Shown piece after piece: positions 4,457 to 44,059 of a stretch of DNA of 62,020 bases. Origin of the DNA: Pirellulales bacterium (GTDB taxonomy: Bacteria; Planctomycetota; Planctomycetia; Pirellulales; JAEUIK01); the NCBI GenBank assembly GCA_019745975.1, contig JAIESQ010000016.1:1-62020 (forward strand), given 5' to 3'. Position numbers and translations under genes: made by a program. Position 1 is the stretch's first letter, and each line of letters opens with the position of its first letter. Under the pieces are notes generated by a model. That model saw nothing but the letters and a program-made list of their open reading frames with translations, was not told where the DNA came from and ran no database searches.

Positions 4457-4529
4457 GGGGACAGGAGTCGTTTCTGAGTCTCGATCTTCCTGATCGCTCG
4501 CGCGGCTCTCAGAAACGACTCCCGTCCCC
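4457..4529. repeat. Inverted repeat (GGGAC-GGAGTCGTTTCTGAG family)
   Basis: Two 22-base arms (4457-4478 and 4508-4529) are complementary with one mismatch, around a 29-base loop. The arm reads GGGGACAGGAGTCGTTTCTG plus AG. It sits between convergent purN and the GNAT gene. The right arm contains the stop codon and the last five sense codons of the GNAT gene. It could act as a bidirectional terminator, but no T-tract follows. The form is that of a REP-like mobile repeat. Confidence 0.85.
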
Positions 4530-33240: not shown

Positions 33241-33427
33241 GCCGACGAACAAGCAGTGCCCGGGGACTGGTGCTTTTTTCGGTGTGAGACATTGCCTGAG
33301 CCGGCTCGCGCCGGCCGAAAACACGTACCTGACCCCTCCGCCCCTCTTGTAACCTCAGCACTGCTTGCTCGTCGGCGCTCGAGTCGACTGGCCAACTCGA
33401 CTGCCGTTCGCCGCCGAGCAAACAGTG
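33241..33427. repeat. Nested composite of inverted repeats
   Basis: The 321-base gap between maf and the MFS gene holds no gene but three repeat pairs. GCCGACGAACAAGCAGTG (33241-33258) pairs with CACTGCTTGCTCGTCGGC (33359-33376), one mismatch. Between them, 33262-33284 and 33314-33336 form an imperfect pair (GGGG...GGT.C...TTTTCGG). 33359-33377 can also pair with 33409-33427 (two mismatches). This looks like one element inserted into another. Confidence 0.65.
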
Positions 33428-41445: not shown

Positions 41446-42207
41446 TTGCGAATTCTGAGTTACAACATCCACAAAGGGATCGGAGGGCAGGATCGCCGCT
41501 ACAACCTGGAGCGGGTGATTCGCGTCATCGAGGCGTCTGCCCCCGACATCATCTGCCTGCAGGAAGTCGACCGCCACGTCGCCCGCTCGCGCCACGACGA
41601 CCAGCCCAAGCTCCTGGCAGAGTACTTCGGTGCGGCGGGGCATTTATTTCAGCTCAACGTGCATTTGAAGGAAGGGGGCTACGGCAACCTCGTGTTGTCG
41701 CGCTGGCCGATCCGGCACAAGCACCAGGTTTCGCTGCGACTAGCCAGCAAGAAGCCGCGCGGGGCCCAGATCGCCGTGATCGACACGCCTGACGGAGCCC
41801 TCCACCTGGCCCACTGGCATCTGGGGCTGGCCGAGCAGGAGCGGCAGTGGCAGGCCCGGCACTTGATGACCCACTCGCTGTTCAACGAGTCAGCCCATTT
41901 GCCGACTGTCGTGATCGGCGACTTCAACGATTGGCGCAACATGCTGGTGAGCGGGGCGCTGGGGCGGGCCGGCTTTCAGCAGGTCACCTCGCCGATCTCG
42001 CGGTTTCGTTCCTTCCCGGCCTTTTGGGCGATGGGCTCGCTGGATAAGGCCTACATCCGCGGCGAGATCATGGTGCAAGAAGCGCACATCATCCGCACGC
42101 GGCTGGCGAAGCAGGCGTCGGACCATTTGCCGCTGGTGGTCGACTTCGAGTTGCTTCGCGAGAACGGCTTCGACCTGAACGGCGCCGCCAATGGCGAGGG
42201 TGCGTGA
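41446..42207 (+). CDS. Endonuclease/exonuclease/phosphatase-family protein
   Basis: A 253-aa metal-dependent hydrolase of the EEP fold. The N-terminal MRILSYNIHKGIGGQDRRY contains the Asn of the active site, CLQEVDRH the metal-binding Glu, VVIGDFNDWRN the Asp-x-Asn pair and QASDHLPLVVDFEL the C-terminal Ser-Asp-His. Family members cleave DNA, phospholipid or inositol phosphate, and the substrate is not predictable. Start TTG 41446 has GGAG 11 bases before it and gives a canonical N-terminus. Confidence 0.88.
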   Translation: MRILSYNIHKGIGGQDRRYNLERVIRVIEASAPDIICLQEVDRHVARSRHDDQPKLLAEYFGAAGHLFQLNVHLKEGGYGNLVLSRWPIRHKHQVSLRLASKKPRGAQIAVIDTPDGALHLAHWHLGLAEQERQWQARHLMTHSLFNESAHLPTVVIGDFNDWRNMLVSGALGRAGFQQVTSPISRFRSFPAFWAMGSLDKAYIRGEIMVQEAHIIRTRLAKQASDHLPLVVDFELLRENGFDLNGAANGEGA

Positions 42208-42240
42208 CCCCGGCCACTGAAGGCCACGGAGATGAGGTTT

Positions 42241-42576
42241 GGCCACAGAGGGGACGGAGATGAATGGCATCAAGTTAGTACTAAGTCGATTCGCCACACG
42301 GCTGAAGCAGTGCTGTAGCAGCACGCTTGCATCAGACCGCTGTCGCGATGATTCTCGGGTTTCGCGCGCGGACATGGTTCGACGAATCTGCTATCGCAGC
42401 AATGCTTAACGAAACTGTGCACAGTATTTGCGCTTAACTTGATGCCATTCGGGACGGAGATCACAGAGCAGGAGGATTGAGAGTGAGTGAATGCTGGCTC
42501 GCTCGTGGTACCTCGCCGACGCTTTAGTGAACTTTACTCCGTTTGCCTTTCTGAATTCCTCGGTGCCCTCTGTGGC
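42241..42576. repeat. CCACAGAG-type inverted repeat, copy 1, interrupted by a MITE
   Basis: The element starts GGCCACAGAGGGGACGGAGA and ends CCTCGGTGCCCTCTGTGGC, complementary at its ends. The inner text ATCACAGAGCAGGAGGATTG and CTGAATTCCTC also occurs in the copy at 42658-42800. A separate 189-bp element with its own terminal repeats interrupts it at 42262-42450. Confidence 0.8.
42262..42450. mobile_element. MITE with perfect 16-bp TIRs and 11-bp target duplication
   Basis: The ends GAATGGCATCAAGTTA (42262-42277) and TAACTTGATGCCATTC (42435-42450) are perfect complements. The direct repeat GGGACGGAGAT stands immediately outside both ends (42251-42261 and 42451-42461), as expected for a target-site duplication. 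The 189-bp element is more AT-rich than its surroundings and encodes no transposase. It interrupts the CCACAGAG-type repeat, giving an insertion order. Confidence 0.85.
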
Positions 42577-42657
42577 TCAAACGCCCCTCGCGCAAACTCC
42601 GCGGCCGACTGGTGAGGTCGCGCTCCATCCACCGCACCCGCCACGGAGAAGTTGCTT

Positions 42658-42800
42658 GGCCACAGAGGGCACAGAGATCACAAAGCAGGAGGATTGAGTG
42701 CGAAGGCCGGCCCTCTCGGCGCCAAATGCCATTGCGTTAAATGGCAAGCTCGGTACGTAAGTTTTCTGAATTCCTCTGTGTCCTCGGTGAACTCTGTGGC
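42658..42800. repeat. CCACAGAG-type inverted repeat, copy 2
   Basis: It starts GGCCACAGAGGGCACAGAGA and ends TCGGTGAACTCTGTGGC. It shares GCAGGAGGATTGAG and CTGAATTCCTC with copy 1, 81 bases upstream. Together the two copies and the short flanks fill the gap from 42208 to 42889, which has no gene. Confidence 0.8.
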
Positions 42801-42889
42801 AAAAATGCCCTCTCTGCGAACTCGGTGGCGTCTCGCATTTTTCGGTGGCCGATTGGCAGGCCGCGCACGGCAGCGTAGGCTTGACGCTC

Positions 42890-44059
42890 ATGAAGCCGAA
42901 GCCCGACGACATCTGTCCGCACCCACCCGAGCCACCTGTTTCGGCGACGCAGCCGATCGCGCCGCCAATTGCGCTTTCGAGCGTTTATCGTTGCGCCGAT
43001 CCGCGCGAAGCCGACGCGCTCTTGGCGGGTAGCGCCGCGGGCTACGTTTATCGCCGCGACGGGCATCCGAATGCCGACACCCTGGCCGAACAATGCCGAC
43101 GTCTGCACGGCGCCGAGCGTGCGGCGGTTTGCGGCTCGGGCATGGCGGCGCTGGCCGCCGTGCTCTTGGCCGAGTTGCGTCCCGGTGATCACATCGTCGC
43201 GGCGATCCAGCTCTACGGCCGCTCGCGCGTGCTCTTGGAACAGGAGTGCACGCGGCTGGGCATCGCGGTCACGTCGGTCGACATCACCAACGACCAAGCG
43301 GTGACCGCCGCGCTGCGGCCGGAGACGGAGCTCGTCATCGCCGAGACGATCACGAACCCACTTTTGCGCGTGCCCAACCTGGCGCGACTCGCCGAAATCG
43401 CGCACGCGCACGGTGCGCGATTATTGGTCGACAACACCTTCGCTAGTCCGGCGATCTGCCGGCCGTTGGAACTGGGGGCCGATTGGGTTGTGGAAAGCCT
43501 GACCAAGATCATGAACGGGCATAGCGACGTCGTGCTCGGCGCGATCATCGGTAGCGCGGCAAACTGGGAGCGCGTGCCGGGCGTGATCACCACCTGGGGG
43601 CTCGTCGCCGCGCCGTTCGATTGCTGGCTGGCGGCGCGCGGCTTGGCGACTTTAGCCCTCAGGATCCAGCGCGCGGCGGCCAATGCCCAATCAGTAGCCG
43701 ACTTCCTCGTATGCCGGCGGGCCGTACGCGAGGTTGTTTATCCGGGGCTGGCGACACATCCCGATCATGCGGTGGCCCGGCAGCAATTCGGCGACCAGTT
43801 TGGCGCGATGGTCGGTTTCAGTCTGGTGGGCGGCTTGCCGGCGGTGGAGCAGTTTATGAAGGCCGCGGCCGAGATCCCGTTTGCTCCGTCGCTAGGCGAG
43901 TTGGCGACGACCGTCAGTCATCCGGCGTCGACGAGCCACCGAGGACTTTCGCCTGCAGCACGGGCCCAACTCGGCATCGATGACGGATTACTGCGGCTTT
44001 CGGTAGGGATTGAATCTTCCGAGTGGATCCAGCGTGCGCTGGCTGCGGTAGTGTCTTAA
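42890..44059 (+). CDS. Cys/Met-metabolism PLP-dependent enzyme
   Basis: A 389-aa PLP enzyme of the cystathionine gamma-synthase/lyase family. The PLP Lys lies at about 206 (VESLTKIMNGHSDVVLG), DNTFASPAICRPLELGAD at about 181 holds the cofactor Asp, and YVYRRDGHPNADTLAEQ corresponds to the substrate region. Members transfer or eliminate sulfur groups (MetB, MetC, MetZ, MGL), and the exact activity is open. ATG 42890 is preferred; the frame is open to a GTG at 42845, but that part derives from the preceding repeat. The TAA stop lies in the left arm of a hairpin repeat. Confidence 0.87.
   Translation: MKPKPDDICPHPPEPPVSATQPIAPPIALSSVYRCADPREADALLAGSAAGYVYRRDGHPNADTLAEQCRRLHGAERAAVCGSGMAALAAVLLAELRPGDHIVAAIQLYGRSRVLLEQECTRLGIAVTSVDITNDQAVTAALRPETELVIAETITNPLLRVPNLARLAEIAHAHGARLLVDNTFASPAICRPLELGADWVVESLTKIMNGHSDVVLGAIIGSAANWERVPGVITTWGLVAAPFDCWLAARGLATLALRIQRAAANAQSVADFLVCRRAVREVVYPGLATHPDHAVARQQFGDQFGAMVGFSLVGGLPAVEQFMKAAAEIPFAPSLGELATTVSHPASTSHRGLSPAARAQLGIDDGLLRLSVGIESSEWIQRALAAVVS

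Follow-up and report, generated by a model that had tools for sequence, protein, structure and literature searches.

Between two genes of the window, the whole 62,020-nucleotide stretch of Pirellulales DNA analysed here, a short element with inverted terminal repeats splits a palindromic repeat of another type. The locus raises three questions: what kind of element this is, which transposase could have moved it, and how its target was chosen.

The 189-bp element and its ten copies

The sequence-only reading had described an element of 189 bp, bounded by perfect 16-bp terminal inverted repeats (TIRs), with an 11-bp target duplication on both sides, lodged in a repeat that has an uninterrupted relative nearby; each of these features was borne out (Table 1). 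The two TIRs are complementary at 16/16 positions, and at up to three mismatches the 16-mer has two matches in the window versus 0.11 expected (1/100 shuffles gave two). The element proper measures 189 bp, whereas the 211 bp of 42251-42461 count both duplications too. The alignments of its two flanks to the neighbouring CCACAGAG-type repeat overlap there by exactly one 11-mer (42668-42678), which identifies this neighbour as a paralogous empty site. The end motif of the CCACAGAG-type repeat has 21 genome matches at up to two mismatches, those in the window included.

Table 1. Coordinates of the split repeat, the 189-bp MITE and the copies of a second MITE; positions without a contig or locus name are those of the window.
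Feature	Position	Strand	Remarks
Left part of CCACAGAG-type inverted repeat, split by MITE	42223-42250	+	42223-42261 85% identical to 42640-42678
Left copy of 11-bp target duplication GGGACGGAGAT	42251-42261	.	sequence read
189-bp MITE	42262-42450	+	10 full-length genome copies, 99-100% identical
Left TIR GAATGGCATCAAGTTA	42262-42277	+	identical to both ends of C116 IS
Right TIR	42435-42450	-	perfect complement of left TIR
Right copy of 11-bp target duplication GGGACGGAGAT	42451-42461	.	sequence read
Right part of split CCACAGAG-type repeat	42462-42605	+	42451-42486 (86%) resembles 42668-42703; 42557-42605 (73%) resembles 42781-42829
Uninterrupted CCACAGAG-type neighbour repeat	42640-42829	+	paralogous empty site
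195-bp MITE copies	L033:3163-3357 (= C116:7662-7856), C52:4183-4377, C201:114024-114218		

The element has a G+C content of 51% (65% for the window) and coding room for 63 codons at most. Five ORFs of at least 20 aa overlap it, just one of them (36 aa) lying wholly within, and a 161-aa ORF that extends into it has no Pfam match. Being short (189 bp, with an upper bound of about 600 bp for MITEs), without a transposase gene, and present in several copies with TIRs and a target duplication at 10/10 of them, it qualifies as a MITE: a new and real mobile element, ordinary in kind, whose choice of target is unusually clear. The window copy is intergenic, between a gene of the endonuclease/exonuclease/phosphatase family on its 5' side (41446-42207, + strand) and a gene for a PLP enzyme of Cys/Met metabolism on its 3' side (42845-44059, + strand); stop-codon distances measured at the ten sites do not settle whether the other nine copies are genic or intergenic. 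As a single strand the MITE folds better than its shuffles (z -3.2, 1/200 as good), largely owing to the TIRs. At gathering scores, Rfam has no match in the window.

In the genome (6.98 Mb, 204 contigs) scoring covered all 22 candidates, ten of which matched, all at full length. Nine copies are identical, and the one in the window differs by a single base at position 38; this near-identity points to a recent burst. The sequence-only reading had held that the lack of any other copy would count against it and had looked to further copies bounded by the TIR; nine such full-length copies exist, with flanks and perfect 11-bp duplications of their own, and five lie in one repeat family. The duplication is perfect at 10/10 copies and comprises eight distinct 11-mers, two of which occur twice (GGGACTGTCCC and GGGACAGGTAC) and the others once each (GGGACGGAGAT, GGGACAGGGAC, GGGACAGGTCC, GGGACACGTAC, GGGACAGTCCC and CCCCCTCTGGT).

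Among 146 relatives including the source genome (at most five candidates per genome scored), and among 392 genomes of the phylum including it (at most two per genome), the MITE was found in the source genome only. The sole phylum-wide match outside it, 28 interior bases, was taken as chance. Apart from the source genome, none of the 21 relatives listed belongs to its genus. Eighteen viral contigs contain one 16-bp TIR match each, with no paired matches in these 18, and a plasmid search with the MITE at E <= 1 returned no match.

A partner insertion sequence of subgroup IS4

At up to two mismatches, the TIR has 24 genome matches, of which 20 belong to the ten MITEs, two bound a 1717-bp IS on contig C116, and two are single ones with two mismatches each. 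The ends of the C116 IS are identical to those of the MITE at 16/16 positions, and its transposase gene is interrupted, so that the IS may no longer be autonomous. The transposase matches Pfam DDE_Tnp_1 (8.9e-23) and NCBIfam transpos_IS4_1 (NF033592; 1.3e-51, 175.7 bits, cut-off 115). In the accessible part of De Palmenaer et al. (2008; PMC2266710), subgroup IS4 is defined by ends of the form -AATR--------WTW----, duplications of 10-13 bp and a size of 1400-1650 bp, with a transposase of the pattern D(60-110)D(100-150)E and Y(2)R(3)E(6)K. Ends, duplication length and DDE/YREK spacing all agree with that description: GAATGGCATCAAGTTA conforms at every fixed position, the 11 bp seen at 10/10 MITEs fall within the range, and the C116 transposase has D-75-D-134-E spacing with the motif YRLRWTIETCFGHLK for Y(2)R(3)E(6)K. 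The differences are that the MITE has no transposase gene and that its C116 partner is interrupted. The IS is 1717 bp long versus 1400-1650 bp for the subgroup; by arithmetic, leaving out a 195-bp MITE nested in it together with the 9-bp duplication of that MITE gives 1513 bp. Its ends begin GAATGG and not CAT, the beginning that marks subgroup IS231.

The sequence-only reading had suggested that duplication length and TIR could point to a transposase family, and both fit the IS4 family, subgroup IS4. It had also looked to a full-length IS with the same ends and an 11-bp duplication, which held for the ends and failed for the duplication: the 11-mers that flank the C116 IS are unlike (GGGACGGGGCA and GGGACAGGTAC), each starting with GGGAC (C116:6346 and 8062). 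Unlike flanks fit recombination between two insertions, or misassembly. The transposase gene is cut by the 195-bp MITE; read from the ATG at L033:3413, a start of our own choosing, the insertion keeps the frame and adds one stop at codon 59, inside the inserted MITE. Neither an intact transposase of this group nor another full-length copy of the C116 IS was found in the assembly; long repeats can drop out of an assembly of 204 contigs, so an intact IS copy may exist. Outside the ends, where 21/22 and 18/18 bases are identical, the interior of the MITE is not clearly homologous to the IS; one stretch matches at 14/15 bases (E 0.038). The first 77 bp of contig C62 (C62:1-77) are identical to internal IS DNA, with the junction to unrelated DNA at IS base 40; this contig start is probably an assembly chimera.

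A class-wide search at E <= 1e-30 returned relatives of the transposase from 84 of 397 genomes, source genome included; several of these are uninterrupted for at least 450 codons. Six loci encoding relatives belong to named genomes, five of them MAGs of Planctomycetota type and one a gammaproteobacterial MAG, and all plasmid relatives (451/451 records) are less than 60% identical. Perfect 11-bp duplications bound 4 of the 31 relative loci examined for ends, one in a Planctomycetales MAG (L078) and three in genomes of the window's class (L097, L102 and L107); at L088 the 11-bp duplication has one mismatch. Ends of the type GAATGGCAY- or GAATGCCAY- are common to many of these loci. Several ends adjoin GGGAC or GTCCC (L079, L080, L087, L090, L092, L097 and L101); at other loci, L102, L105, L107 and L109 among them, neither motif adjoins the end, and the duplications of L102 and L107 have no GGGAC edge. 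One group-type end, that at L087, adjoins GGGGACGGAGAT, which is also the target of the window copy. Against a profile of 32 relative ends picked by eye, the inner bases 17-40 at both ends of the MITE score above 99% of shuffled sequences (17/2000 and 15/2000 as good); the inner bases at the right end of the C116 IS fit it poorly (83/2000 as good). In the same-class genome of L090, a 231-bp stretch with group-type ends (L090:1225-1455) lies 11 bp from an IS end of the group (1467 onward) and is possibly a further MITE.

The 189-bp element is thus very probably a MITE mobilised in trans by a transposase of subgroup IS4, because its ends are common to an IS4-family IS and because DDE/YREK signature and duplication length fit the subgroup. 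By analogy with the IS4 family, the transposase would bind the 16-bp ends together with weakly conserved bases further in, and would excise the element by cut-and-paste. The excised element would then be joined to staggered cuts 11 bp apart, and repair of the gaps would give rise to the 11-bp duplication. An intact transposase would have done this before the C116 copy was interrupted, or from another location.

Target sites in palindromic repeats

Read in the + orientation of the MITE, 9/10 duplications start with GGGAC. One imperfect palindrome (GGGACAGGTACATGTTTTCGGCC ... CCGAAAAATGTACCAGTCCCC) houses five of the copies, all in the same arm and in one orientation; its left-arm motif has 68 genome matches at up to three mismatches. 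This repeat, the main landing site, measures ~110-130 bp by eye, an example being found at 33313-33335 of the window (- strand). Three copies sit at GGGACWGTCCC, two of these in clear hairpins, and GGGGACTGTCCC has 38 exact matches in the genome. One copy, that of the window, lies inside the CCACAGAG repeat, and one (L003) adjoins a short GGGGGTATCCCCC palindrome. Repeats of several families therefore serve as landing sites for another mobile element, and ten clean, recent insertions make the target rule of an IS4-subgroup element readable. Preferred targets would have GGGAC at one edge, with GGGGAC-W-GTCCC or GGGGACAGGTAC as the best form. As the arms of palindromic repeats hold most of the extended target sites in this genome, the MITE would accumulate in such repeats.

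We compared the sites with controls drawn from the window and 20 stretches of 20 kb (462,020 bases in all), hand-picked from long contigs and holding few copies of the target repeats; window positions 42200-42500 were dropped for an ungapped and 42200-42700 for a gapped hairpin test. The extended motif GGGGAC[AT]G[GT][TC][AC]C occurs once in these 462,020 bases. By arithmetic, some 4% of GGGGAC sites lie in target repeats (68 + 38 repeat matches among ~2,600 extrapolated sites). In the gapped test, 8/10 empty sites reached a hairpin score of at least 14, compared with 3/172 GGGGAC controls and 2/1000 random positions (Fisher 2.8e-10), where the threshold was chosen after the scores had been seen and five of the sites, belonging to one repeat family, cannot count as independent. 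At 4457-4528 of the window, a strong hairpin whose arms are GGGGACAGGAGTCGTTTCTGAG holds an apparently unoccupied GGGGAC-type site.

This contrast, and the origin of the palindromes from more than one repeat family, would be expected if the transposase homed to extruded palindromes, recognising hairpin or cruciform structure and not the GGGAC sequence. We consider such recognition unlikely. Structure is confounded with sequence at these sites, nine of ten having GGGAC in common and five being copies of one repeat, and two copies (L003 and L007) fail the gapped test, scoring like random positions. The contrast is 8/10 versus 5/172 at threshold 12 and shrinks to 3/10 versus 2/172 at threshold 16. 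An earlier and stricter test with ungapped arms was weak and separated the groups little: the ten sites scored 5-10, the controls had a median of 5 with 7 at the 90th percentile, and two of them outscored every one of the ten. Moreover, some of the IS relatives also adjoin GGGAC or GTCCC, and selection would purge insertions into genes. The target bias itself may thus reflect a preference for sequence, a preference for structure or selection against genic insertions, which are not separated here. It is likewise doubtful that transposase and MITE choose a hairpin or cruciform plus GGGAC, in one arm and one orientation, with palindromes as safe landing pads across this bacterial group.

Another reading would make the element a REP/RAYT-type palindrome, with a Y1 (HUH) enzyme as its transposase. 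Matches to the Y1_Tnp family number 15 in the genome, 14 of them above the cut-off, and the MITE is both short and, at its window position, intergenic. Y1 transposition and REP/RAYT systems are not known to make a target duplication, however, and one is present at 10/10 copies; the MITE ends match those of an IS4-family IS, and the extended target motif is absent from the vicinity of 14/15 Y1 loci. An origin of this kind is accordingly very improbable. With the motif at 1/15 Y1 loci, a RAYT link to the target repeats was rejected as well.

Segmental duplication or homologous recombination without transposition, to which the identity of nine copies and the common repeat family around five might point, is refuted by boundaries and duplications as the source of the ten copies, since their wider flanks differ, the repeat copies surrounding the five have diverged whereas the MITE itself shows no such divergence, and the two 11-mers that enclose any one copy are equal, with eight different 11-mers among the ten copies.

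Known counterparts and a second MITE family

IS231A, a Bacillus element, has the target GGG-N5-CCC, edged by G/C as is that of the MITE. With IS231A and MIC231, as treated in the accessible part of PMC2266710, the MITE shares membership of the IS4 family, duplications in the range of 10-12 bp and the existence of non-autonomous derivatives; their ends begin with CAT, and those of the MITE and the C116 IS do not. The main text of that paper contains no match for 'planctomycet' or 'mite'.

A closer parallel in target choice is ISRm22 of Sinorhizobium meliloti, an IS4-family element all nine copies of which, according to the accessible part of Tobes and Pareja (2006; PMC1525189), lie in palindromic REP elements. 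Perfect repeats are missing from three of these copies, a lack that those authors ascribe to recombination; the same is possible for the C116 IS. ISRm22 differs in its 6-bp duplications, in inserting at the palindrome axis where the MITE uses one arm, and in being a full IS; the accessible part of PMC2266710 assigns it to subgroup IS4Sa. The MITE thereby joins ISRm22, the one IS4-family example of palindrome targeting that we met in the literature (PMC1525189, accessible part). Two features set the present case apart from otherwise ordinary mobile-element biology: an IS4-subgroup element that targets palindromic repeats sharply, and a chain of elements within elements.

The 195-bp MITE belongs to that chain. 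It has ends GTGTGAGCGTCTCGATTGTGGG, 9-bp duplications and three identical full copies, and its L033/C116 copy is the one that interrupts the IS4 transposase gene. At up to three mismatches its 22-base end has no further match in the genome, and no IS with these ends was seen there. On contig C85, a 65-bp stretch is 83% identical to this MITE.
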